This document shows positions 29,332 through 42,241 of a stretch of 64,000 nt of DNA, in pieces. Made by a program: the position numbers and the translations under genes. The DNA comes from Haloferula helveola (GTDB lineage Bacteria > Verrucomicrobiota > Verrucomicrobiia > Verrucomicrobiales > Akkermansiaceae). How positions within the stretch are numbered: the first letter of the stretch is position 1; each line of letters opens with the position of its first letter. The stretch covers positions 4,712,001-4,776,000 of the forward strand of contig NZ_AP024702.1 in assembly GCF_037076345.1 (NCBI RefSeq), read 5' to 3'. Under the pieces are notes generated by a model, which had not been told where the DNA came from, did no database searches, and saw only the letters and a program-made list of their open reading frames with translations.

Positions 29332-30597
29332 TCAGAAGAAGAAGCGTGCCGCCACACTGGTGGTCCAGCCGCTGTAAATCCGCTGTCCGTCCGACTCGAG
29401 GCGGTCGTACTGGACTCCGGTCATGAGCTTCACGTTCTCGCCGCAGAGATACCAGTTCAGGCCGGCGTAGAGGTTGTGGTGCTCGTCGCCGCGGCCGCCA
29501 TTCAGGGCAAGGCCGAGACGCTGCTCGGCGACGCGAGCGTAGCGGCCGTTGAGGCGGATGCCGTCCGGTTCCTCGGCCCCCTGATACTGGTAGCGGAGGA
29601 CCAGCTTCAGTTTGCCATCGACGATCCAGTACATCGGCATGACGTAGCCGCCCCAGAACATGCCTTCGCGGCGCGGATTGGTCTGGTCGCCATTGTCACC
29701 GATGCCGAGCGACGTGTGGACGGCCCACGGGCCCCGGCCGATCCGCGAGACGCCCGCGAGTGCCCACTCAATGCCGCCCGCGAGACGGTCTTCGGGAATG
29801 TCGGCATCCTGGTAGAAGAAGGAGAACCAGAGATCGTTCATGTCGAAAGGGGTCATTCCCGCGAAGTCACCCTCCCACGAAACGAAGAGCATGGTGCCTG
29901 CATTCCAACTCGGCATGTATCCCGACTCGTCGGTGGACACCACAGCGATATCCACGGTGGAGAGGCCTTTCGTGAATTTCAGCCACGCGGCGAGAGGGTT
30001 CGAGCCGTCTTCATCGTTCGGCCACATCTTGTTGGAGAAGTCGGCCCGCTCGATCGTATTGATGTGCGTGGCGGAGCGCTGCCATTGATCGGTCATCCGG
30101 ATCGAGCGGCGGCCGTAGCCGAACTCGAGGCTGTCGACGGCCTCGATGCCGAACGCCCGCCCGGCGTCGAAGCTCACGTAGGCGCTGCGGAAGTTCTCGT
30201 GTCCGAGTTGCCATCTGCCTCCGGCAGGACCGAGGTCGCGCGAGGCGTTCGAGGCGAACTTGAACTTGAAGTAGTCGAGGAAGCGCCCGTTGAACCCCCA
30301 CCAGAAACGGCGGTTCTCGTCATAGACATCGTTGAAGTGCCGTCCGTTGCGGTCCTTGCCGTCGATGTAGGTGTACTGGTGGTGATAGACGAGGTAGAGA
30401 TTCAGCTCCTGAAGGTAGGGATTCTCGTCGTTCTTGTAGAGCTTCGGAAAGTCCACGAGCGACTTGCACCAGTCGCCACCGGAAGGGGAAGGAGGTTGGG
30501 AAACCGGAGTCTTCGCTCCAAGCTCACCCGCTTGGGCGGCGTGGAATGCCAGCATGACCGTGAAGCCAATGCCGAGGATGCGAACAGGGATTCTCAT
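29332..30597 (-). CDS. OprP/OprO-like phosphate-selective-type porin
   Basis: This protein has 421 residues from the ATG at 30597, which gives the signal peptide MRIPVRILGIGFTVMLAFHA. In-frame sequence upstream is not protein-like. It has a beta-barrel alternation throughout (FRSAYVSFDAGRAFGIEAVD, LEFGYGRRSIRMTD, FEMDLWFSFFYQDADI-like blocks) and ends TTSVAARFFF with a terminal Phe. Overall length and the early HHQYTYIDGKDR region resemble OprP/OprO family porins. Whether it is specific for phosphate is not shown, but the phosphate-type genes begin only about 1.2 kb away. A DoxX-like gene is divergent from it. Confidence 0.65.
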   Translation of the reverse strand: MRIPVRILGIGFTVMLAFHAAQAGELGAKTPVSQPPSPSGGDWCKSLVDFPKLYKNDENPYLQELNLYLVYHHQYTYIDGKDRNGRHFNDVYDENRRFWWGFNGRFLDYFKFKFASNASRDLGPAGGRWQLGHENFRSAYVSFDAGRAFGIEAVDSLEFGYGRRSIRMTDQWQRSATHINTIERADFSNKMWPNDEDGSNPLAAWLKFTKGLSTVDIAVVSTDESGYMPSWNAGTMLFVSWEGDFAGMTPFDMNDLWFSFFYQDADIPEDRLAGGIEWALAGVSRIGRGPWAVHTSLGIGDNGDQTNPRREGMFWGGYVMPMYWIVDGKLKLVLRYQYQGAEEPDGIRLNGRYARVAEQRLGLALNGGRGDEHHNLYAGLNWYLCGENVKLMTGVQYDRLESDGQRIYSGWTTSVAARFFF

Positions 30598-30679
30598 GCG
30601 TCGAGCGTCCGTCGCTTGCTCCAGCGCCGTCAAGTGATGATGCCCGGTCCCGAACCAAAACCGGCAAACTGCGGCACTC

Positions 30680-31678
30680 ATGAAATTTCCGGATCTTCGG
30701 AGCGGTATGGGCGCGATCATTTTCATGAGCTTGCCCAGCGCTTCGACTTTCAACTGGTCCGGAATCTTCAAACCGCACGACGGCCGTCTTGAAACGCTGC
30801 AGGCCCAGTTCCACTGGACCTTCCGGGTGACTGCCGCCCTTTGCTTCATCGGGCACGGGGCTTGGGGGGTGATCACCAAGTCCGGGTGGCTTCCGTTTTT
30901 CCAATCCCAAGGCATCGAGCCCGGGATTGCCTGGAAGCTCCAACCGCTGATCGGAGCGTTCGACGTCCTGATGGCGCTTGTGCTGCTGTGGAAGCCGCGT
31001 CGGATCGTGGTGATGTGGATGTTTCTGTGGGGTTTGTGGACGGCGATCCTCCGGCCGCTCGCGGGAAATCTGAAGAAGGAGCAGGTTGATGGCGAGTGGG
31101 TGGTCTCACTGGCAACCGACTCCATGCATGTGCCTAAGATGCAGACTTGGGAGTTCTGGGAACGGGCAGGCAACTGGGGCCCGCCATTTCTACTGCTGCT
31201 GATGGCCGGCGGCTTCGTGATGAGTCGCAAGGATTGGCTGGGCGCCTATGTCGAGCCGGCGATGACCGCCGCGAAGGCGAACACCATATGGTGGCTGTCC
31301 CGCTTTTGTGTGGGTGCCCTGATGGTGGGGCATGCCGGGTTCGGCTTCGGCGTGAAGAAGCAGATGCTGATCGACCATTGGCAGGCCGTGGGTGTCGATG
31401 CCGATGTCTCGACCATCGTCGCGATCGGCTGGGCGGAACTCGCACTTGGCTTCCTCGTGTTCCTTCTGCCGCTGCGCCCGATCGTTTGGCTGGTTCTGGT
31501 ATGGAAGCTCTTCACCGAGTTTCTCTACGTGCCGGCCGACACCGTGACGGGGAAAGGTCTTCTCAACATCTTCGAGTGGATCGAGCGGTGGGGCGACTAC
31601 GGGTTGCCACTGGCGATGTTGTTCTTCATCGGCTGGCGCAAGGCCCGGACGGCACCGAAGGATCCGGCGGTTGCGTAA
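30680..31678 (+). CDS. DoxX-like multi-pass membrane protein, unknown function
   Basis: This is a 332-residue protein with roughly eight hydrophobic segments, for example IVVMWMFLWGLWTAILRPL, PFLLLLMAGGFVMSRKDWLG, VAIGWAELALGFLVFLLPLR and LVLVWKLFTEFLYVP. Repeated features RVTAALCFIGHGAWG and RFCVGALMVGHAGFGFGV (Gly-His-Ala/Gly) suggest internal duplication of a DoxX-type four-helix unit. The role is unknown; DoxX relatives act in quinone or sulfur redox chemistry. An ATG at 30680 is used, though two in-frame Met follow closely. It lies upstream of the phosphate-type cassette but is separated from it by the operator-like repeat at 31712, so it is probably not in that operon. Confidence 0.6.
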   Translation: MKFPDLRSGMGAIIFMSLPSASTFNWSGIFKPHDGRLETLQAQFHWTFRVTAALCFIGHGAWGVITKSGWLPFFQSQGIEPGIAWKLQPLIGAFDVLMALVLLWKPRRIVVMWMFLWGLWTAILRPLAGNLKKEQVDGEWVVSLATDSMHVPKMQTWEFWERAGNWGPPFLLLLMAGGFVMSRKDWLGAYVEPAMTAAKANTIWWLSRFCVGALMVGHAGFGFGVKKQMLIDHWQAVGVDADVSTIVAIGWAELALGFLVFLLPLRPIVWLVLVWKLFTEFLYVPADTVTGKGLLNIFEWIERWGDYGLPLAMLFFIGWRKARTAPKDPAVA

Positions 31679-31782: not shown

Positions 31783-32424
31783 ATGAGATTCGTTTTCTGG
31801 CCGCACCTTATCGCCGAGGCTGGAACGAATGCCGGTGGTTCCAGCATCGCCGAGGTGTGTTCGGGTGTCGGGTTGGGCGCGCTGATCGCGGTGCCTGTCT
31901 CCCTGCTGGGAAGTGTCATTGGCGCGCGGGCGGGAATGGTGCCCGAGAGATGGTTCGATTCGCTGATCGGGTCGATCGGTCGATTGCCGACGCTGCTCAC
32001 CTCGGTGCTGTTGGGTTTGTTTCTGGTTTCCCGGGGAGTGAATGAGTCGCCCGCCATGTGGGGCATGGTGGCCATGGTCGCGGGCACGCCGGTGATCTGG
32101 CGGATTTCGGCCCGTGCCTTGTCCGAGCTGCCGGTCGGCATTCTCGAATCGGCGCTTGCGTTGGGTTTGTCGCGCCTCAGGACCTTGTGGGTCGTCGGAT
32201 ATCCAGTCGTGGGTCCGGCCTTGACGGGAGCGGTGGTGGTCGGAGTGGCCCGGGCCCTGACGGTTGGCTGGCTGGTATACGAGCTGCGCCAGACGCAGAA
32301 GGCGCCGCCGGTTTCCGAGTGGTGGCAGGTCGTCGCGGTTGTCTCGGTTGTGACACTTTTGGGTTCTTGGTTGCTGGGAGTGGGCAGGAGAAAGTCCAAG
32401 GCCTTGGAAAGGGCGTCGTCATGA
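31783..32424 (+). CDS. Pst-like ABC transporter permease (short)
   Basis: This is a 213-residue membrane protein with about five helices. The cytoplasmic EAA-type loop ELPVGILESALALGLSRLRT followed by LWVVGYPVVGPALTGAVVVG places it in the PstA/PstC permease family, as does GVARALTVGWL near the end, which aligns with the family's ARA-GETAPL region. It is shorter than typical PstA (about 280). It overlaps the ATPase gene by the ATGA tetranucleotide, so the two are translationally coupled. No PstS-like binding protein or second permease is next to it; a homodimer of this permease is possible. Confidence 0.75.
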   Translation: MRFVFWPHLIAEAGTNAGGSSIAEVCSGVGLGALIAVPVSLLGSVIGARAGMVPERWFDSLIGSIGRLPTLLTSVLLGLFLVSRGVNESPAMWGMVAMVAGTPVIWRISARALSELPVGILESALALGLSRLRTLWVVGYPVVGPALTGAVVVGVARALTVGWLVYELRQTQKAPPVSEWWQVVAVVSVVTLLGSWLLGVGRRKSKALERASS

Positions 32425-33224
32425 CAGAAGCGGAACAGGTTGAGAACTGGTCGGAAGGCCAGCTGCCCGGAATCGAGTTCATCGATTTCCGGCTGCGGGT
32501 TGGCAGCCATGAGGTGATCCGTTCCGCGACCCTTGCTTTCGAACCTGGCGCGGTGACGGGTCTGCTGGGACCGACCGGATCCGGAAAGACGAGCCTGCTT
32601 CGTGCGATTGTCGGTCTTGAACACTTCACCGGTGTCGTCACCCGCAGGTCGGGCGATGTCCGGATCGGCGGCCTCGACATCGTGCGCACCAGGTCGGATC
32701 TGCGCCGACTGCGAAGCCGGGTCGTGATGATCCCCTCCGCAGGCGCACCGTTTTCCTTTTCGGTCTTCGACAACGTCGCCGCGGCTTTGCGGGAGCAATG
32801 CAAGAACCGCGCCGAGCTGCGTCAGCGGGTGAGCGAAACGCTTGAGCGCTGCGGGTTGGGTGACGTTCCCGCCGGCAAGCCCGCGCTGGCTCTCGGCCAT
32901 GGGCAACGCCGCTTCTTGTGCGTCGCCCGTGCGCTCGCGCTACGTCCCGCGGCCCTCTTGCTCGACGAGCCTTTCGACGGACTCGATCCGTTCGAATCGA
33001 GTCGGATGGAGCAGCTCATCGCCTCGCTCGCCGGGCGCCACACCGTTGTTCTCGCGACCCAGCACACCGAGCGGGCGGCCGCGGTCTGTTCGAGGATGCA
33101 CCTTTTGATCGGTGGCGAACTCGTCGAATCGGGTACAACTTCCCAAATGCTCGCCAGTCCGAAAGACCGTCGGACCGAAGCCTATCTCAGCGGCCGGCCT
33201 GCGGTCGCATCTGTTGAATCATGA
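32421..33224 (+). CDS. Divergent PstB-like ABC transporter ATPase
   Basis: This protein has 267 residues. Walker A is GPTGSGKTS (50-58), Walker B is ALLLDEPFDGLD (178-189), and the H-loop His is 215 (TQHTERAA). The segment PFSFSVFDNVAAAL aligns with the PstB motif PFPMSIYDNV, giving the phosphate-type assignment. Two positions depart from the norm: the Q-loop Gln is Ser106 (VVMIPSAGAP) and the LSGGQ signature reads ALGHGQ (157-162). Either could slow ATP hydrolysis. It overlaps both the upstream permease and the downstream phoU by ATGA, so all three are made together. Confidence 0.82.
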   Translation: MTEAEQVENWSEGQLPGIEFIDFRLRVGSHEVIRSATLAFEPGAVTGLLGPTGSGKTSLLRAIVGLEHFTGVVTRRSGDVRIGGLDIVRTRSDLRRLRSRVVMIPSAGAPFSFSVFDNVAAALREQCKNRAELRQRVSETLERCGLGDVPAGKPALALGHGQRRFLCVARALALRPAALLLDEPFDGLDPFESSRMEQLIASLAGRHTVVLATQHTERAAAVCSRMHLLIGGELVESGTTSQMLASPKDRRTEAYLSGRPAVASVES

Positions 33225-33931
33225 ATTCCCAAGCATCGCACTACCTCGGAGACTTCGACTCGGCGCTGCAGGCGCTGCGCTCCGAGGTCTTCTCCATGGC
33301 GGACATGGCCAAGCACAACATCGACCGGGCCATCCGGGCGTTGGTCGAACAGGATCTCGACCTGTGCCGGACGGTGATTGCGGACGACAACGAGGTGGAT
33401 GAGGCGGAGCGTCGGGTCGACCGGATGGGGATGGAGGCGATCGCCCGTTTCAAGCCGGTGGCGACCGACCTGAGGATGGTGATTTCCTCGATGAAGATCT
33501 CGACCAACCTCGAGCGGGTGTCCGACCACGCGGTGGGCATTGCGAAACGGGTGCGGAAGATCCTTCGCTGCGGAGAGGTGGCGGAGTTCACCTATGCCGA
33601 CCTTCTCTACTCGATGGCTTCGTCGATCCTCGCCGATGCCGTCGCTTCCTATGCGGATGGAAATGTCGAACTGGGTGCCTCACTCAGCGAGCGCGACAAG
33701 GAGCTCGACCGCGCCTACAAGCGCTGCACCAATTCGCTGAGTGACTCGCTCGGCCGCTCCGAAGGGAATTCCGAGCTCTACCTCCATCTGATTTTCATCC
33801 TGAGGTCCTTGGAGAGGATCGGCGACCTGGCGGTGAACATCGGCGAGGATGCCGTGTTCATGGAAGCCGCTCGCGACATTCGCCACGGCCACGCCCTCGA
33901 CGAGGAACCGATGCCGGAAAACCAAGGCTGA
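33221..33931 (+). CDS. phoU: PhoU phosphate-signalling regulator
   Basis: This 236-residue all-helical protein is of normal PhoU length, with two three-helix PhoU repeats. The metal-binding motifs are recognisable: ADDNEVDEAERRVDRM and SLSERDKELDRAYKRC each provide the E/DxxxD pattern, and LRMVISSMKISTNLERVSDH and LIFILRSLERIGDLAVNIGE are the family's most conserved helices. PhoU links Pst transport to the PhoR/PhoB two-component system and represses phosphate genes when phosphate is ample. It is the last gene of the cassette, and no phoR/phoB is visible in the window. Confidence 0.93.
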   Translation: MNSQASHYLGDFDSALQALRSEVFSMADMAKHNIDRAIRALVEQDLDLCRTVIADDNEVDEAERRVDRMGMEAIARFKPVATDLRMVISSMKISTNLERVSDHAVGIAKRVRKILRCGEVAEFTYADLLYSMASSILADAVASYADGNVELGASLSERDKELDRAYKRCTNSLSDSLGRSEGNSELYLHLIFILRSLERIGDLAVNIGEDAVFMEAARDIRHGHALDEEPMPENQG

Positions 33932-33949: not shown

Positions 33950-35101
33950 TCAGGAATCTTCGTCGGGAGAGTCGCTTTCCTGTTCCGTTGCCGTCTCCGC
34001 GGGCGCGTCGGCGGCAGGTTCGTCAGCGACCACCTTGGTGACGAAGATCGGGAGGGCGAGGGCCAGCACGATCGCGACCACCGAGCCGAGGAAGGCCTTG
34101 CCGGCATCCATGAACACGATACGGGCGACCACCGGTTTGCCGCGGTGACGGAGCTTCATCGCGAGACCGATCTCGCGGCCTGCCAGCAGGCCGAGGAAGA
34201 CCCAGGTCGTGCTCATCGGCATCTTCGGCGGCCATGGCACGTCCATCCCCATTTTCTCGAAAAGGGCCGGGATGTAGTCGACCTTGAACATCAGTAGGAC
34301 CACGCCGTAGAGCAGGTCGATGAAGGTCGCCGAACGGACGTCGAGGGTGTTCGTCTTGGAGGTGACGACTGCCTGGATCTTTCCACCTTTCTGTCGGATC
34401 AGATAGCCCTGAAGCGCGACCATCCCGCCGAGGGAAAGCACGAGGCCGCCGACGTGCAGCTCCCGTGGCAGATAGGCGAAAATGTTCGCGAGGTCCTGAA
34501 CCAGCCACATGCTCCACAGGAACCCCGTGGAGAGCCACTGGAAGACCATCCAGCCTGGGTGGGGCTTGTCCTTGACCTCGTCCGGTTCGTTGTAAAACCG
34601 GCGCTCGAGTGCGCCGGTGACGAGGAAGAAAATGACGAGGCCCAGGACAAAGGCGATGGCGTAGCCGACCAGCGACTTCTGCATCATCGATCCGAAGAGG
34701 TCGATGGCACCCTGCGCCGATTTGCCCTGCTGGGCGGCGACCAGACCTTTGAAGGCGGTCAGGACCAGCAGCGAGGTGCTGACCGGAATACCGGCGCGGG
34801 TCAGCAGCACGAGCGCGAGTGGGGGGAGGACGAAGAGCCACGTGAAGTATCCGCCGTAGGAATGGGGGAACGGCACCTCTTTGCCCGGTGAGTTGAGCCG
34901 TCCGAAAGCGGGGTCTCCCGCGTTGATCATCCAGCCCCAGGTGACCGTGACGATCATGATTCCGGAGATCCAGATCCAGAGGATCCACCACGGTCGCTTT
35001 GCGTTGGAGCTGAGAAAGGTGCCTAGGGTTTGGATCGAGTCGTTCGCCACAATGGCGTAGGCGGCGAGCGCGAAGGCGAGAATCATCCAGAGGGTGTCCA
35101 T
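33950..35101 (-). CDS. PiT-like inorganic phosphate permease
   Basis: This is a 383-residue membrane protein with about nine helices. The N-terminal ALAAYAIVANDSIQTLGTFL resembles the PHO4/PiT signature (GANDxANxxGT) with the invariant Asn-Asp, and an extended basic/acidic C-terminus follows. TFIDLLYGVVLLMFKVDYIP looks like part of the second repeat, but the second signature is not obvious. PiT carriers bring phosphate in with cations. The gene is convergent with phoU, 18 bases from its stop, and shares its upstream inverted repeat with the Pst-like cassette, so it probably belongs to the same regulon. Alternative: a divergent relative with another substrate. Confidence 0.65.
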   Translation of the reverse strand: MDTLWMILAFALAAYAIVANDSIQTLGTFLSSNAKRPWWILWIWISGIMIVTVTWGWMINAGDPAFGRLNSPGKEVPFPHSYGGYFTWLFVLPPLALVLLTRAGIPVSTSLLVLTAFKGLVAAQQGKSAQGAIDLFGSMMQKSLVGYAIAFVLGLVIFFLVTGALERRFYNEPDEVKDKPHPGWMVFQWLSTGFLWSMWLVQDLANIFAYLPRELHVGGLVLSLGGMVALQGYLIRQKGGKIQAVVTSKTNTLDVRSATFIDLLYGVVLLMFKVDYIPALFEKMGMDVPWPPKMPMSTTWVFLGLLAGREIGLAMKLRHRGKPVVARIVFMDAGKAFLGSVVAIVLALALPIFVTKVVADEPAADAPAETATEQESDSPDEDS

Positions 35102-35175: not shown

Positions 35176-35256
35176 CGAACTGTCGCTTCAGAGCATCTTT
35201 CGGATTGAACCGAGACGCTTTGTCGGTAGTCTGCGCTGCAATTATTGATATGGAGA

Positions 35257-35871
35257 ATGGAAGTTTCTCTTAATCGTTCAGTTTTGGTGCTGAACCGTTT
35301 CTGGCAGCCGGTGCAAACCTGCTCGGCGCGTCGGGCGCTGAAGCTTCTCTGTCTCGGGCATGCCCAGGCGCTGCAAACGGAGGGCGAGGAGAAGTTCCGG
35401 ACCCATGACTTTTCGAGCTGGGCGGAGTACTCGGAATCCGGAGCGGTCAAGGAACTCGTCCACTCGGTGAGCATCGTCCTCGGCGTGCCGCGAATCATCG
35501 TGCTGTCGCTCTACGACAAGTTTCCGCGGCTGCAGGTCCGGCTCACGCGCCGCAACGTCTTCCTGCGCGACCAGTTCACCTGCCAGTACTGTGCGAAGGA
35601 GTTCTCCGAGCCCGAGCTCAATCTCGATCACGTGATGCCGCGCGACAAGGGCGGGCGGATGACTTGGGAAAACATCGTCACTTCCTGCATCCGCTGCAAC
35701 ACGCGCAAGGCCAACAAGCTTCCGAAGGAGGCGAACATGCATCCCTTAAAGAAGCCGGTGACTCCTAAGTGGCGGCCGATCTTCGGGCTACGCGGATACA
35801 ACGGTTCGCCGGACGACAGCTGGCGCCATTTCCTCGAGCCCGACCGCACGGCGGTCCGGATGTCGGCCTGA
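35257..35871 (+). CDS. HNH endonuclease family protein
   Basis: This is a 204-residue protein from the ATG at 35257; a TTG four codons earlier is possible, and GGAG lies only 2 bases upstream of the ATG. The N-terminal region (SVLVLNRFWQPVQTCSARRA) is typical of a widespread stand-alone HNH family. The HNH core is at about 105-155: RRNVFLRDQFTCQYCAKEF, ELNLDHVMPRDKGGRMTWEN, CIRCNTRKANK. Two CxxC pairs bind the structural zinc and DHV supplies the catalytic His. The family's physiological role is not known; it is often a solitary housekeeping gene rather than part of a restriction system. Confidence 0.85.
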   Translation: MEVSLNRSVLVLNRFWQPVQTCSARRALKLLCLGHAQALQTEGEEKFRTHDFSSWAEYSESGAVKELVHSVSIVLGVPRIIVLSLYDKFPRLQVRLTRRNVFLRDQFTCQYCAKEFSEPELNLDHVMPRDKGGRMTWENIVTSCIRCNTRKANKLPKEANMHPLKKPVTPKWRPIFGLRGYNGSPDDSWRHFLEPDRTAVRMSA

Positions 35872-35883
35872 TGTTGGGGCGGG

Positions 35884-37569
35884 TCAGGGGAGTTCGCTTA
35901 GTCCGACGTCGAATCGGTAGCAGCGTGCCGGATGCAAGGGACCGGCGGAGTTATCGATGATCACCCGTTCGACCGGGCCGCTGTCGAGGCCGGTGTCGAG
36001 TGGCGGACCCATCGGGAACCAGTCGACCAGGTTGTCGGAATACTCGCACTGGTAGAGGTAGTCCGGCTCCGAGGTGAAGTGGAGCAGGGTGCCGTTGATG
36101 ATCGTGATCGGGGTGTCGGCATCCTGCGGGTTCGAGTTCGGGCCGAGCAGGTAGAAGGCCGTGTCCAGACCGGGTTCGAAGGGCAGGGCGTGGGTGTAGC
36201 TCGATCCGGCATTCGCGCTGGAGTGCGGATCGCCCGACGGGAACCAGTCGCCGAGGTTGGTCGAGTAGAGAAGCTGGTACTGACGGCCGGTTTCGGCGGT
36301 GAATTGGGCCGCCTTGCCCCGCGTGATGCGTATGCTGTCGACGAGGTCGTCGGGGATTGGGACGATCACCTCGGTCAGAATCGAGGCTCCCGAAATGGCC
36401 CAGGCCGCCTGCTCACCGGAGGGATTGATGCCGTTGCCCGCGACCACATCGCCATTGCTCGAAACACCGACCGCGCTGGTGAGCGTCCAGCCGGTCAGAC
36501 TGACGCCGAGACCTTCGAGCACTGTCGAGAGTTTCCGCAGACCATTCGCGGCGTCCCAGATCACCGCGACGGTGCCGGTGTCGTCGCTGCTCTCCCCAAC
36601 CGCGAATGTGCCGTCGCCGCTGACGGCGAGAAGCTTGCAGTAGGTGTCGCCACCCGGCAGGTCGCCGACCGACATCGGGACGCCTGCTGTCCAGACCACG
36701 CCTTCGAGCCCGTCGGCTGATTCACCGTTTCCGACGATCACCTGCGAGTCGTCGGAAATGCCGAGTGCTTGGGAAGAGAGCGCACCTCCGGGGAGGTCAC
36801 CGAGCCCGCTGATGCCGCTGGCGGAAGTCCACTGGAACGCTTCGCTGCCCTGCTCGACGATTACCGGAGGCGGGACGTAGTTGTCGGTAGGATCGGGATC
36901 CGGAACGCTTTGGAAGATCGTAAAAGTGCTTGTTCCGATGACGGTCTGGCCATCTGCCGAGATGTCGTCGGCTTGGGAAATGATCCCGTAGCTGTCACCG
37001 ACCTGGGTGGGCGTGGGTGTCAGCACCCCGACGCTTTGCATCGTGCCGCTGGTGGCACCGGTGGCGGTCCAGATAAAACCGCGGAAGCCGTTGTTGCTGG
37101 TGCTGGTGCCGACGACCTTCTGGCCATCGTCCGAGATTCCGCGGGCGTCGGAGTTCCGGTAGCCTGAAGTGTTGAGGGTGCCGAGCTGCGTTTGGCCGGT
37201 GCCTTCGATCCAGCGGGAAGCCCGCACGGTTCCGACACCCAGCACCACCGTGCCGCAGGCTTTGGTCCCATCACCCGAGATGTCGGCCGCGTTGGACTGG
37301 AACGGACTGTTCGGCAGGTCACCGAGGCCCAGTCCCGTGCCGGGAAGCGTCCACCGGGCAGCTTCCGTGCCGCTGGCCGAATCGCTTTGGCCGCAGACCA
37401 TCAGACCGTCAGCCGATACGCCCCAAGCACGGCTCAACACCTCTCCGCCCCCGAGATCCGGCAATTCCACGAATTCGGGCAAGTCGGGGCCGGCTGCGTG
37501 GAGGCAGGGGCTGGCCATGCCGAGGACTACGGCGCAGCATCGGATCGGTTTCCGGGTCAATTGGGGCAT
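35884..37569 (-). CDS. Secreted HAF-repeat protein, shorter paralog
   Basis: This is a 561-residue protein from the ATG at 37569 with a signal peptide (MPQLTRKPIRCCAVVLGM, cleavage near LHAAG). Residues ~25-420 hold repeats of the HAF type (for example GLGDLPGGALSSQALGISDD, VVWTAGVPMSVGDLPGG), each ~40-50 residues and likely forming a beta-propeller-like fold. The C-terminus has two copies of a short strand-rich unit (YQLLYSTNLGDWFPSG, YQCEYSDNLVDWFPMG). The HAF region is close to that of the next gene upstream, so the pair is a tandem duplication with unlike tails. No enzyme motif is seen. Role at the cell surface is inferred. Confidence 0.8.
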   Translation of the reverse strand: MPQLTRKPIRCCAVVLGMASPCLHAAGPDLPEFVELPDLGGGEVLSRAWGVSADGLMVCGQSDSASGTEAARWTLPGTGLGLGDLPNSPFQSNAADISGDGTKACGTVVLGVGTVRASRWIEGTGQTQLGTLNTSGYRNSDARGISDDGQKVVGTSTSNNGFRGFIWTATGATSGTMQSVGVLTPTPTQVGDSYGIISQADDISADGQTVIGTSTFTIFQSVPDPDPTDNYVPPPVIVEQGSEAFQWTSASGISGLGDLPGGALSSQALGISDDSQVIVGNGESADGLEGVVWTAGVPMSVGDLPGGDTYCKLLAVSGDGTFAVGESSDDTGTVAVIWDAANGLRKLSTVLEGLGVSLTGWTLTSAVGVSSNGDVVAGNGINPSGEQAAWAISGASILTEVIVPIPDDLVDSIRITRGKAAQFTAETGRQYQLLYSTNLGDWFPSGDPHSSANAGSSYTHALPFEPGLDTAFYLLGPNSNPQDADTPITIINGTLLHFTSEPDYLYQCEYSDNLVDWFPMGPPLDTGLDSGPVERVIIDNSAGPLHPARCYRFDVGLSELP

Positions 37570-37649
37570 CGCGACGGGCAGTGAAGGCACAACGTTCGGC
37601 GAAACCGTGCCAGCGGAAAACGGGCCTGTCAGGCGATAATTCGATCAAG

Positions 37650-37661
37650 CGTGGATCCACG
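37650..37661. repeat. 12-base perfect palindrome CGTGGATCCACG
   Basis: It lies between the two HAF genes, about 80 bases before the start of the shorter one. It could be an operator or part of a dispersed intergenic repeat. A single copy was seen. Confidence 0.4.
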
Positions 37662-37722
37662 AATGCACGCGGATTGGCCGATTCCTCCCCGAATCTGAAC
37701 TTCTTGGGCTGATTTCAGGGGG

Positions 37723-40700
37723 TCAGGGCCGCTGGAACCTGTCGCCGAGGATCACCGCTTCCTCCGCGGCCAAACTCACGGTTCCGTAAAGAATCCCGGG
37801 CATGGAGCCGGTGAGGGCGGGATCGACGAGCATGCCGAAGAACTCGTAGGGACGTTCTCCGGTGGCCTCAGCGACGTTCAGAGCCAGATGGAATTGCGGA
37901 AGCTCCAGCATCGAAAACCCGCTTTTTCCAGAGAAGGTGAAACCGAGAGTCGGGCCGCCTTTGCGGGCTGCCCGGTAGCCGAAGATCTGGCTCGATGAGA
38001 AGCTGTCCCCGGGAGCGTGGGGTTCGACGACCTCGAAATCGAATGGAGACGCCTTCTTGGAGGAAAGCGGGCGCATCACCCGACTGACATCGAGATCCGG
38101 GCCGTCGCCTCGAATCCACCACTTGAGCGTGGTGCCGTCACCCGAGTACTGCATCCATAGTTGCCCGGCATCACGAGGGCTGCCGGCGATCGTGCTGATC
38201 CACTTCGCAAAGGTGGCGGTGTCGACGGCCAGCGTTTGGTGGATGCCGGCTCCGTTGATGAACACGAGTTCGAGGTTCGTTGTGAGCTCACGCTCCACCA
38301 CGAACGAGCCGCTGCCATCGGGAACCGCGATCTCTCCGGCGAGATCGACCGTCCCGGAAAGCAGGCCGGGCCGCGTGCCGGTCAGTGTCGGATCGACCAA
38401 CGCACCGGTCAGGCGCCACGGCATGTCACCGGTCGGGTCCGCGAGATCCACCCACTCACCGGGCTGTCCGGTCGCCACGGGTTGCGAAAACCCGGGACCG
38501 GCCAGGATGAAGTTGAGCGACGGGCGCCCCTTGGCGCTGACCGAATAGCCGAAGCTCTGTTCAAATCCGAACGACTCGCCGGCGGCGTGAGGTTCGACAA
38601 CCTCGCCGGTCATGGTCACCGGTTTCGAGAATTTCGGCGGCTTCATGACCTTGGTGACATCCAGATCGGGTCCGTCGCCACGGATCAGCCACTGCAGGGT
38701 CTTTCCATCGAGCGACTGGCGCATCCATAACTCACCTGCAGCCCTCGGACTGCCGGCGATACTGCTAAGCCAGTAGGCAAATCCGGCGGTGTCCACAGGG
38801 TCGTCGTGGTAGAGACCGGAAAGGTCGGTGTAGACGATTCCGAGATCCATTTCGACCCTGCGCTCGATGAACGCATCGGGCTTCGACTTGCCACTCGTCG
38901 GGCTGCTGCCCATCGCGATTTCCTGGGGATCGGTGAAACCGTCGCCGTCGGTGTCGGCACGCGTGGGGCTGGTCTTGTAGAGGATCACTTCCTCTCCGTC
39001 CGGGATTCCGTCGTCGTCAGAGTCTCGGTCGTTCCTGTCACTTCTCGCCTTGGCCTCCTTGCTGTCGATGAGTCCGTCCCCATCCGTGTCGAAGTCGAGC
39101 GTCAGCCCGAGTTTGGCATTGCGGGTGGAGAGCGCGAGAACCACGGGAGTTCCCGAAGTCAGCGGATCCATTTCCGCGTGGATCTGCTGGGTGGTATTGG
39201 AGCGGGCGTAGAATGTGAGGTTGCCCTTCCGCTTGTTCAGCGTGACGGTGCCCGACTGGGTGCCGACATGGATGGTCGCATCCGGGCCGGGTTGGATCAC
39301 TCCTTTCGCAAGGCTGACCGAGACGGTGATCGCGACGGGTTTGTCGGCTGGGTTGAGCGGATCCGTTCCCGCACCGATTTCAGCGGAGTCGTTCACCCGG
39401 TCGCCGTCGGTGTCGGCGCGTTTCGGGTCGGTGCCGTGGGTCCTGACCTCATCGAAGTCGCTGAGGCCGTCCCTGTCGGTGTCGCGGTGGTTGAAATCGG
39501 TGCCTAGCGCGACTTCCTCGCTGTCCAGCAGTCCGTCGCCGTCGCTGTCTCCATCAAGTACGAAGGACACCGTGGTTGCGGGTCCGAGGACCACGGTTTG
39601 GGGTGCGCCGCCGTCGAGTTTGCCGAATTCCGCCGTGAGCCCGTAGCTCGCGCCGTGGGGCAGGTAGAGCACGCGGCTTCCCGTTCCCTGAGACATGCTG
39701 ACCGGAAATGACCGCTCATATCCATCACTTCGGGCAGTGACATGGGCGGTGGCGTTGTTTGCGGACAATCCACTGGCCACCCGGAGCGACGCGGTGACCG
39801 GCACCGGATAGCTTACTTCCTCCGGAGTGCCTCCGCTCAGGATGTGGTTGATGCCGGAGACCACCCACCCCTCGTTGTGACCGCTGGGATTGATGGAGTT
39901 GCCGGCGATCACGTCGCCATCCCGGGAAATGGCGGTGGCTCCGGTGAGCGACCACCCAGAGAGCTCGAGTCCGGCATTCGCGAGCACGGCCGAAAGCTTC
40001 CGCAATCCGTTCGATGCGTCCCAGATGACGGCGACCTTGCCTGTGTCGTCGGTCCCTTCGCCGACCGCCACGGTTCCAGCTCCGTTCACGGCGAGCAGCC
40101 GGCAGTAGGTGGCTCCGCCGGGAATGTCTCCGACTCCGGCCGGTGTGCCGTCGGTCCACACGACACCTTCGCCGCCTGCTGCCGACTCGCCGGATCCGAC
40201 AATCACGCGACCGTCGTCCGAGACTCCGAAGGCTTGGGAAGAAAGCGCACCACCGGGCAGGTCACCCAGACCCACCATGCCGCCTGATGCGGTCCAGCGG
40301 AACGCCATGCTGCCTTGCTCAATGGGAGTCGGCGGAGGAGTGAAGCCGTCGTTCGGATCCGGATCGGGTGTGTTCCGGAAGACCGTGTAGGTGCTCGATC
40401 CGACCACAGTGCTGCCGTCCGCGGAGATGTCGTCGGCCTGAGAGACCACGCTGACGCTGTCGCCGGTCTGAGACGGGCTGGGTGTGAGCACACCGAGGCT
40501 CTGCATCGATCCGCTGGCCGGTCCGGAGGCGGTCCAAAGGAAGGCCCGCAGGCCGTTCGGACTGGTGCTGATGCCCACCACCTTGCTGCCGTCATCGGAA
40601 ATTCCGCGGGCATCCGAGTTCTGGTAACCGCTCGTGTTGAGGGTGCCGAGTTGGGTGTGGCCCTGACCTTCGACCCACCTTGAGGCACGGACCACGCCGA

Positions 40701-41019
40701 CGCCGAGCACCACGCTGCCACAAGTCCGGGATCCATCACCGGAGATGTCGGCGGCGTTCGACAGGAACGGGCTGTTGGGAAGGTCTCCGAGACCCTCGAC
40801 ACTGAATGGAAGCAGCCATCGGGTCGCCTCGGATCCGCTTGTCGATGAGCTTTGCCCGCACATTGCGGTGCCGTCGGAGGAGATACCCGAAACTTGGGCA
40901 CTCACCGAACCGCCGGGCAGGTCCTCCAATGGCAGGAATTCAAGAGACGTCGGGGGAAAAGCTTCCGCCGAAACACCCGAAACAAGAACCAGGATCGAAA
41001 AGAGGCGGAGGACGCTCAT
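37723..41019 (-). CDS. Secreted HAF-repeat protein with calcium-binding repeats, longer paralog
   Basis: This is a 1098-residue protein from the ATG at 41019 with a signal peptide (MSVLRLFSILVLVSGVSA). Residues ~25-420 are HAF repeats, very similar to the next gene. Then come thrombospondin-3-like calcium loops: DGDSDGDGLLDSEEVALGTD, DTDRDGLSDFDEVRTHGTD, DTDGDGFTDPQEIAMGSSP. The last ~330 residues are two copies of an unrecognised ~150-residue domain, marked by YWLSSIAGSPRAAGELWM / KWISTIAGSPRDAGQLWM and IRGDGPDLDV. The protein is probably exported and surface-associated. No cleavable PEP-CTERM tail is seen at the end (GDRFQRP). Confidence 0.82.
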   Translation of the reverse strand: MSVLRLFSILVLVSGVSAEAFPPTSLEFLPLEDLPGGSVSAQVSGISSDGTAMCGQSSSTSGSEATRWLLPFSVEGLGDLPNSPFLSNAADISGDGSRTCGSVVLGVGVVRASRWVEGQGHTQLGTLNTSGYQNSDARGISDDGSKVVGISTSPNGLRAFLWTASGPASGSMQSLGVLTPSPSQTGDSVSVVSQADDISADGSTVVGSSTYTVFRNTPDPDPNDGFTPPPTPIEQGSMAFRWTASGGMVGLGDLPGGALSSQAFGVSDDGRVIVGSGESAAGGEGVVWTDGTPAGVGDIPGGATYCRLLAVNGAGTVAVGEGTDDTGKVAVIWDASNGLRKLSAVLANAGLELSGWSLTGATAISRDGDVIAGNSINPSGHNEGWVVSGINHILSGGTPEEVSYPVPVTASLRVASGLSANNATAHVTARSDGYERSFPVSMSQGTGSRVLYLPHGASYGLTAEFGKLDGGAPQTVVLGPATTVSFVLDGDSDGDGLLDSEEVALGTDFNHRDTDRDGLSDFDEVRTHGTDPKRADTDGDRVNDSAEIGAGTDPLNPADKPVAITVSVSLAKGVIQPGPDATIHVGTQSGTVTLNKRKGNLTFYARSNTTQQIHAEMDPLTSGTPVVLALSTRNAKLGLTLDFDTDGDGLIDSKEAKARSDRNDRDSDDDGIPDGEEVILYKTSPTRADTDGDGFTDPQEIAMGSSPTSGKSKPDAFIERRVEMDLGIVYTDLSGLYHDDPVDTAGFAYWLSSIAGSPRAAGELWMRQSLDGKTLQWLIRGDGPDLDVTKVMKPPKFSKPVTMTGEVVEPHAAGESFGFEQSFGYSVSAKGRPSLNFILAGPGFSQPVATGQPGEWVDLADPTGDMPWRLTGALVDPTLTGTRPGLLSGTVDLAGEIAVPDGSGSFVVERELTTNLELVFINGAGIHQTLAVDTATFAKWISTIAGSPRDAGQLWMQYSGDGTTLKWWIRGDGPDLDVSRVMRPLSSKKASPFDFEVVEPHAPGDSFSSSQIFGYRAARKGGPTLGFTFSGKSGFSMLELPQFHLALNVAEATGERPYEFFGMLVDPALTGSMPGILYGTVSLAAEEAVILGDRFQRP

Positions 41020-41125
41020 CGGCGTGTGACACCCCGGAAGCCGGGACGGCGGAAATCTTCCTCCGGCACGGGCGGATGTCAGCTGCAGAAAACCGGAAAC
41101 CGCAAAAAGTTGCGGACGGTCGGCC

Positions 41126-41157
41126 ACGACTCCGGTCGGGGGGAAGACCGGAGTCGT
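41126..41157 (-). terminator. Stem-loop after the small PEP-CTERM gene
   Basis: Perfect 12-base arms ACGACTCCGGTC / GACCGGAGTCGT enclose an 8-base loop and start 19 bases past the stop codon of the leftward PEP-CTERM gene. A T-tail is absent, so it may act as a processing hairpin or factor-dependent terminator. Confidence 0.6.
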
Positions 41158-41452: not shown

Positions 41453-42241
41453 TCAACCGCCGAAGCCCGCCGGAAAGACCATGTTGAGGAGCAAGGTCAG
41501 GAAGAAATTGAAGACCAGCAGGGCGAGCGCGGAGAAGACCATGGCACGGGTCGTTCCCTGACCCACCCCCACAGCGCCATTCGTCACGGTCAGGCCCTGG
41601 TGGCAGGAGACCGTGACGATCAGGAATCCGAACACGACGCCCTTGATCAGCGCGATCAGGATGTCGGAGAGGTCGGTGTAGTGGTGGACCTGGTCCATCC
41701 AGTAGGCCGCATTGACGCCGAACGGGCCGGTGCCGACGACCAACGACGCCCCGATTCCGAACGCGGCCGACTCGGCGATGAGGAGCGGCATCGCGATGAA
41801 CATCGCGATCATCCGCGGCGTCACCAGATAGTCGATCGGGTGAACCCCCATCGAGCGCAGCGCGTCAATCTGCTCGGTCACCTTCATGGTGCCGATTTCC
41901 GCGGCCATGGACGCACCGACCCGCCCCGCCAGCATCAGGGCGGTGATCGATGGGCCGAGCTCGCGCAGCATCGCCACGCTGACCAACGCTCCGGCACCGC
42001 TCTCCATCCCGAGAGGGCTGAACTGGAACAGCGCCTGCGCGGCGAGCACGGCACCGGTGAAGGCACCGGTCATGATCACCACCGGCTGGGACCGGTAACC
42101 GATTTCCGCAATCTGCCGGAGGATCAGCGTGCCCCGGAGTTTGCCGTTCTTGATCGACTCGGCGATCTGCGCGATCAGCTGCCCCAACTCCCCGAGGTAG
42201 GAGAGGAAGCCCAGAGTCTGGTTGCCGATCCGCGCGAACAC
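41453..42241 (-). CDS. mlaE: MlaE-family ABC permease (phospholipid/lipid transport)
   Basis: This is a 262-residue permease of normal MlaE length. It starts with GTG at 42241. The segments IVIMTGAFTGAVLAAQALFQ, AMLRELGPSITALMLAGRVG, ASMAAEIGTMKVTEQIDALR and GVHPIDYLVTPRMIAMFIAM are the family's signature run. In E. coli MlaFEDB moves phospholipids between inner and outer membranes. Here the ATPase (MlaF) and MCE protein (MlaD) are not adjacent, so they would be encoded elsewhere. A zinc-ribbon membrane protein is divergent on the right. Confidence 0.85.
   Translation of the reverse strand: MFARIGNQTLGFLSYLGELGQLIAQIAESIKNGKLRGTLILRQIAEIGYRSQPVVIMTGAFTGAVLAAQALFQFSPLGMESGAGALVSVAMLRELGPSITALMLAGRVGASMAAEIGTMKVTEQIDALRSMGVHPIDYLVTPRMIAMFIAMPLLIAESAAFGIGASLVVGTGPFGVNAAYWMDQVHHYTDLSDILIALIKGVVFGFLIVTVSCHQGLTVTNGAVGVGQGTTRAMVFSALALLVFNFFLTLLLNMVFPAGFGG

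Follow-up and report, generated by a model that had tools for sequence, protein, structure and literature searches.

A probably pst-derived permease, ATPase and PhoU cassette in Haloferula helveola: a candidate transport-dead signalling remnant

A three-gene cassette of Haloferula helveola lies in a 64,000-nucleotide stretch of contig NZ_AP024702.1 (positions 4,712,001 to 4,776,000, here called the window; source, a 5.68-Mb single-contig genome, 98% complete). It may be the ancestral pst operon of the genus, remodelled into a transport-dead, PhoU-linked signalling remnant, a reading to which sequence comparison and analogy with E. coli mutants give a probability of about 0.5. The cassette consists of a PstC-core-like permease gene with a BPD_transp_1 match (31783..32424, plus strand, 213 aa), a PstB-like ATPase gene with TIGR00972 as its best family (32421..33224, plus strand, 267 aa) and phoU, above the cut-off of TIGR02135 (33221..33931, plus strand, 236 aa). 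The genes overlap by ATGA at 32421-32424 and 33221-33224, exactly as a first-pass annotation of the DNA had described. The sharing of the locus with relatives, the motif losses and the non-match to PstS are observed directly; from sequence comparison we infer that transport has been lost and that the permease and the ATPase descend from the local PstC and PstB.

Position and Ancestry of the Locus

The cassette stands at the pst locus of the genus. Sixteen other phoU loci of the genus were compared, protein families being scanned in L091 only and assigned in the remainder via similarity clusters. A porin-like gene in L088 and L090-L093 is followed by PstS, PstC (752-775 aa), PstA (540-546 aa), PstB1, PstB2 and PhoU, in that order; PstS through PhoU also lie together in L082 and L085, and L083 and L086 are interrupted by contig ends. 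The porin-like gene and the ATPase, PhoU and HNH-like genes are common to the window and these loci, as are several genes farther downstream. Because the flanking genes are common to relatives with a full pst operon at this place, the cassette is taken to be the ancestral pst locus remodelled in place, which is the simplest history. A separate full pst operon, which might have marked the cassette as a decayed copy, was not found elsewhere in the genome, and the remodelled ancestral locus appears to be the cassette locus itself.

The ORF holding the porin-like gene (29332..31230, minus strand; label by eye, true start downstream of the TTG) encodes a protein 34.6% identical over 462 aa to that of L090; the homologue lies upstream of pstS in relatives, and the L090 protein gave no Pfam match at E<=0.001. 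The HNH-endonuclease-like gene that marks the other flank (35245..35871, plus strand; label by eye) lies 3′ of phoU in L088 and L091 and adjoins phoU in G013 and G017. Identities between window and relatives were set against those of relatives among themselves (five syntenic relatives, fewer for some genes). The HNH-like gene gives 79.9% vs. 84.3%, the gene at 41456-42241 gives 80.8-82.8% vs. 79.4%, and three more flanking genes are similar. PhoU, in contrast, is 49.8-54.6% identical to that of relatives (58.5-77.1% among them), and the ATPase 30.2-36.1%, against 82.3-96.5% for PstB1 and 73.7-85.5% for PstB2 among relatives. Divergence is raised in PhoU, in the porin-like gene and above all in the ATPase, and not in the flanking genes.

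Several observations concern these loci more generally. In L078-L081, L084, L087 and L089, PstB2 precedes PhoU, and the stretch read contains neither a PstS nor a permease from these clusters; PstB2 of this pair is canonical and sits apart from pstSCA, and a PiT-like gene (30-32% identical to the PiT of H. helveola) lies near the pair in L079, L080, L087 and L089. The PstC of the genus (L091:2240-4510, ~757 aa) carries an N-terminal extension of ~430 aa that is faintly beta-propeller-like (Pfam E 0.00095, below cut-off). On the minus strand of the window, 35884-41127 encodes two adjacent proteins of 568 and 1134 aa, alike by eye, with a homologue beyond phoU in L090 and L093.

The ATPase

The nearest family of the ATPase is TIGR00972 (PstB), at 181.3 bits against a cut-off of 343.2; in the relative G013, PstB1 and PstB2 reach 400 and 395.3 bits. 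Its best PDB match is a PstB as well (9k3x). Walker A K56, Walker B D182, catalytic E183, the D-loop Asp and the C-terminal Y and GR are retained. The intact Q-loop, LSGGQ and H-switch of a PstB are not found: Gln is replaced by S106 in the Q-loop, the signature reads LGHGQ (158-162), the H-switch His is Q214 and the A-loop Tyr is V27. Ser106 and LGHGQ had already been pointed out and are both correct in the alignment, by which the ATPase is more degenerate than first noted, with further changes in the A-loop, in the H-switch and at the position of E. coli Q160. The ATPase was compared with 55 further PstB rows, a few of them near-identical: 25 come from the genus's phoU loci, 29 are the best matches in the phylum and one is E. 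coli. In these rows, the signature residues equivalent to E. coli S155 and G156 are present in every one, and the Q-loop Gln and H-switch His in 51. Directly behind the signature, the ATPase has R164 at the position of Q160, where 106/106 other rows of a wider set, near-duplicates included, have Gln.

Each ATP site of an ABC protein is made up of the Walker/Q/H face of one subunit and the signature of the other. The lone ATPase is changed on both faces, and therefore a homodimer would have no intact ATP site, each site lacking the Q-loop Gln, the signature Ser and the H-switch His. A second PstB-like protein was not found in the genome at E<=1e-30, 6 of 62 first-look candidates having been scored.

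The Permease

The BPD_transp_1 match of the permease, 25.8 bits, is just below the Pfam cut-off of 26.4, and its NCBIfam scores are far below those required for PstA (25.5 vs. 193.45 bits) and PstC (23.2 vs. 196.45 bits); the permeases of G013 pass these Pst cut-offs with 206.9 and 246.9 bits. The EAA coupling loop is retained at residues ~116-128. Alignment with E. coli PstC and PstA places the RxxGE motif at R157-A-L-T-V161, with the Arg (PstC R237, PstA R220) kept and GE lost; the motif is intact in 12/12 aligned PstC and PstA proteins, E. coli included. Its Glu is residue 241 in the current E. coli record and Glu240 in the mutant study cited below (PMC5775613), and the two are taken as the same motif.

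In blastp, residues 94-180 align with residues 612-695 of a PstC of the genus (42.7 bits), and residues 34-92 are collinear with PstC 457-516, a piece without significance when taken by itself (E 0.39); the score is 29.6 bits for PstA and 13.1 bits for the ModB-like protein of the same genome. A P-V-x-E-W stretch is common to the permease and the PstC of the genus. Such a stretch also occurs in 12/58 RxxGE contexts of fetched permease loci, which were picked by an RxxGE-type pattern and are uninformative on how common RxxGE is. Other full-length matches were found neither in 57 relatives nor in 387 phylum genomes, the genome itself included (next-best E-values 1.1e-7 and 6.4e-9), and the PDB gave none at E<=1. 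The permease was also modelled by itself with AlphaFold, and the result (pLDDT 50, pTM 0.26) was not used. A match in Salinisphaera (L060) covers 19 residues, with no permease-like ORF seen there, and was judged to be chance.

Phosphate Carriers Elsewhere in the Genome

No binding protein and no second permease adjoin the cassette, as first described: neither turned up when five proteins at 30.7-35.1 kb were scanned. PstS (PF12849) had no match in the genome at E<=0.01, and 13/14 control genomes were positive. Within the genus 16/18 genomes have a PstS match, the exceptions being H. helveola and one 61%-complete genome. The genome-wide permease search, made with a PstC profile, returned the cassette permease and two loci (2492050, 5069243) that look by eye ModAB-like and FbpABC-like; a kinship with molybdate or iron importers was considered on this account and rejected, the score against the ModB-like protein given above being weak for molybdate too. 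Two permeases, PstC and PstA, above their cut-offs are not present in the cassette.

The comparison with PstSCAB-PhoU of E. coli summarizes the likeness and the loss. The cassette likewise has a PstB-like ATPase, a PstC/PstA-like permease with an EAA loop and PhoU as its last member, and it occupies the genomic place of the genus's pst operon. However, it lacks a PstS match and a second permease, its permease has 213 aa rather than 319 or 296, RxxGE is broken, the ATPase motifs are changed, and permease and ATPase are both below the Pst cut-offs.

Phosphate could enter through a PiT protein, above cut-off at 1033366, and through a protein encoded near 4.001 Mb that has PhoU domains and a transporter part resembling NptA by look. 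The PiT gene (L124:433-3161, near 1.033 Mb) is flanked by a polyphosphate-kinase-2-looking and a DUF47-looking ORF, both named by eye.

PhoU and Signalling

PhoU is above its equivalog cut-off (TIGR02135, 168.7 vs. 130.25 bits; PF01895, 130.7 bits) and 50-56% identical to genus orthologues, and 17/18 genus genomes, this one included, have a match. Near 29 kb of the contig, a PhoB-like regulator adjoins a PhoR/PnpS-like kinase, both below equivalog cut-offs.

The precedent for signalling by a transport-dead Pst complex comes from E. coli. In one study, PstB Q160K does not transport and still signals phosphate sufficiency, which the authors attribute to an open, inward-facing state; PstA R220 and PstC R237 and E240 mutants lose transport and keep signalling, and PstB E179Q signals starvation (PMC5775613). 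The Glu equivalent to E179 is retained in the ATPase. The mutated PstA and PstC residues are changed to Gln; the cassette is altered in the same RxxGE motif and keeps PhoU, and the residue equivalent to Q160, Lys in the mutant, is Arg in its ATPase (PMC5775613). In contrast to the laboratory mutants, which are point changes in an otherwise complete complex, the cassette is natural and lacks subunits, and signalling by it is proposed by analogy.

From this comparison, the following course may be proposed. The operon would have lost PstS, PstA, one of its PstB proteins and PstC's long N-terminal region, leaving a PstC-core-like permease, one ATPase and intact PhoU, with overlapping genes. The ATPase would have kept the nucleotide-binding Walker motifs and the catalytic Glu and lost other residues for hydrolysis and dimer closure, and phosphate import by the cassette most likely ended. 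Anchored in the membrane, the permease-ATPase may then partner PhoU and restrain the PhoR/PhoB-like system, as PstB Q160K does in E. coli. Arg164, at the Q160 residue, would predict an open, 'phosphate-sufficient' state. Phosphate would enter via PiT/NptA-type carriers, perhaps including the 383-aa protein encoded next to phoU. The signalling role and PhoR as partner are put forward more tentatively than the loss of transport. The phosphate-sensing module suggested in the first-pass annotation is compatible with these results and has the E. coli precedent on its side (PMC5775613), and it would still be a proposal by analogy. Tentatively, at somewhat less than even odds, the cassette may be a natural ABC pseudo-transporter that has shed PstS and the catalytic ATP sites and become a membrane-anchored, nucleotide-binding signalling platform for PhoU, fixed by Arg at the Q160 position in the phosphate-sufficient state, with sensing split from transport, two functions that are intertwined in E. 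coli. Among the matches listed in the open-access literature, no paper deals with a PstS-less permease-PstB-PhoU cassette.

Tandem PstB Pairs with Complementary Sites

The four exceptions among the 55 census rows are members of tandem PstB pairs from other families of the phylum. Twelve such operons, spanning seven family codes, were read (L147-L150 and L192-L199, from G331, G411, G196, G084, G152, G155, G259, G351, G365, G178, G385 and G059). In all 12, the first PstB has Ala for the Q-loop Gln and Asn for the H-switch His with LSGGQ intact, and the second keeps Gln and His and has a broken signature (LPLDQ, LPMDQ or LSPEQ); this 12/12 is no phylum frequency because operons were picked after one member already showed the changes. 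Given the two-subunit composition of ATP sites, such a pair would form one intact and one degenerate site. The sequences thus predict that PstB-a/PstB-b pairs are heterodimeric ATPases of Pst importers in which one site is active and the other degenerate, possibly a more interesting finding than the cassette. In the genus's own PstB pairs, each protein retains the Q-loop Gln, LSGGQ and the H-switch His, and the cassette has no second, complementary PstB.

The pairs resemble asymmetric ABC exporters, which likewise have one intact and one degenerate site (PMC4046567). Like the cassette ATPase, TM287/288 and BmrCD combine a conserved fold with altered motifs at the catalytic site, and their degenerate sites still bind nucleotide; in contrast to the cassette, whose single ATPase would give two impaired sites, they keep one working site (PMC4046567). 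Both members of the tandem pstB in E. faecalis are described as having the ATPase motifs (PMC12096839), and PstBA/PstBB of B. subtilis have been modelled as a pair (PMC11466899). Complementary degenerate PstB pairs are the subject of no paper among the open-access matches listed.

Alternative Explanations

Several points weigh against reading the cassette as a remodelled signalling remnant. The ATPase retains its catalytic Glu and the permease the Arg of RxxGE, and altered motifs do not by themselves prove loss of function: changed Q, H or signature residues occur in PstB proteins elsewhere, although there in complementary pairs. Descent of the permease from the local PstC is likely but not proven, because its profile score is no closer to PstC than that of the ModB-like protein (26.2 vs. 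30.8 bits with the genus PstC profile), and the case comes from ~87 residues. The ATPase lies on a very long branch, and the trees do not separate the local PstB1 from PstB2 as its likely ancestor. In approximately unbiased (AU) tests, descent from PstB1 had p 0.025 (0.062 with PstB1 and family rows) and from PstB2 p 0.149 in a set leaving out one outgroup, L123 and L117; leaving out all outgroups and the motif columns gave p 0.311 and 0.245. No promoter-like sites were found. Codon scores against a uniform-synonymous null are above it for the permease (0.114) and the ATPase (0.180), but this evidence is weak and was rejected as support because an antisense ORF scores alike (0.151). Among the genomes searched, one only carries the cassette, which therefore gives no measure of purifying selection, and the strong divergence fits relaxed constraint as well.

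Relaxed constraint leads to the main rival, an unlikely one: a decaying pst operon, in which PiT/NptA carriers took over, permease and ATPase drift, and PhoU alone is useful. Steep divergence is confined, among the compared genes, to the pst and porin-like genes, PstS has no match and other phosphate carriers are present, as decay would have it. However, the permease and ATPase ORFs are both free of stops and joined by ATGA overlaps up to phoU, and when neutral decay of pstB2 from a relative was simulated down to 33% identity, 0/300 runs were stop-free (mean 5.5 stops; 2% stop-free at 50% identity). Retention of the Walker A Lys, Walker B Asp, catalytic Glu, D-loop Asp and C-terminal Y and GR also argues against drift. 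Absence of stops is weaker evidence in GC-rich DNA, the 391-aa antisense ORF across the permease gene and a large part of the ATPase gene being open as well; stop-free ORFs speak against a plain pseudogene and not against weak constraint.

It is improbable that the permease and the ATPase came from elsewhere, by transfer or as an old paralogue, for instance from the degenerate PstB-a lineage found in other families, and landed upstream of phoU. A mixture-model tree does place the ATPase with four PstB-a proteins (support 95/95), with which it has in common GSGKT (3 of them), GLDP (all 4) and PKD.RT (3). Without the motif columns, however, the grouping is unsupported, joining the ATPase to PstB-a, PstB2 or PstB1 costing 0.2, 0.3 and 1.1 log-likelihood units; moreover, PstB-a proteins retain LSGGQ and sit beside a partner, the best matches of the permease are long PstC-type frames of the phylum, and neither plasmid sequences nor IMG/VR gave a permease match.

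Distinctly improbable, too, is the homodimeric transporter considered in the first-pass annotation, a compact active importer (permease2-ATPase2) for phosphate or another anion with an unlinked binding protein. Permease size and the EAA loop would fit small homodimeric importers such as ModB (the ModB-like protein of this genome has 224 aa), and neither the catalytic Glu nor the Arg of RxxGE has been lost. In contrast, no PBP_like_2 protein occurs in the genome (other binding-protein families were not searched), the Q-loop, signature and H-switch are altered in the sole PstB-like match at E<=1e-30 (6 of 62 candidates scored) so that both composite sites would be impaired, and GE of RxxGE is lost while the ModB-like protein retains RSLGE.

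The Neighboring 383-aa Protein

Convergent with phoU across an 18-bp gap lies a gene for a 383-aa membrane protein (33950..35101, minus strand). The label 'PiT-like' given to it is plausible but weak: PHO4 (PF01384) scores E=0.047 with 13.1 of the 33.7 bits needed. The family occurs in 7/116 relatives including this one (the others 66-73% identical in one comparison and 63-71% in another); PHO4 is weak in five of its seven members, with a best E of 0.012, and no Pfam E-value below 0.004 was obtained among the members scanned. ANDSIQTLGTF and GIPVSTS are conserved in 7/7 members. By eye, GIPVSTS and MPMSTT resemble the PiT repeats, but the protein is below cut-off, the profile-comparison probability is only 3%, and the PDB gave no match at E<=1. 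On sequence grounds a phosphate carrier is possible.

The least probable alternative makes the permease-ATPase a regulatory partner of this carrier rather than of PhoR, a link to the carrier having been proposed at the outset. In its favour are the adjacency of phoU and carrier gene, here and in G027 (which also lacks a PstS match), and the count of genomes in which PstS is unmatched, 4/7 with the carrier vs. 14/109 without it (Fisher p 0.011, post hoc and ignoring relatedness). Against it, 3/7 carrier genomes have PstS, 5 of the 6 carrier genomes other than this one show no phoU in the stretch read, and beside the carrier G027 has no permease match and a 30-residue ATPase match only (E 0.019).

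Implications

How Pst and PhoU signal phosphate to PhoR is an old open question, the study of which is hampered by sensing and transport residing in one machine. If the cassette is indeed a remodelled, transport-less version of that machine, a natural one that seems to retain PhoU, the coupling loop and the ATP-binding motifs after losing catalytic residues, PstS and the transport motif, it would show what the sensor minimally needs; at the position where a laboratory mutation yields the same split between sensing and transport, its residue is basic. The complementary PstB pairs, in turn, suggest that Pst ATPases may be asymmetric, which bears on models with a symmetric PstB dimer.

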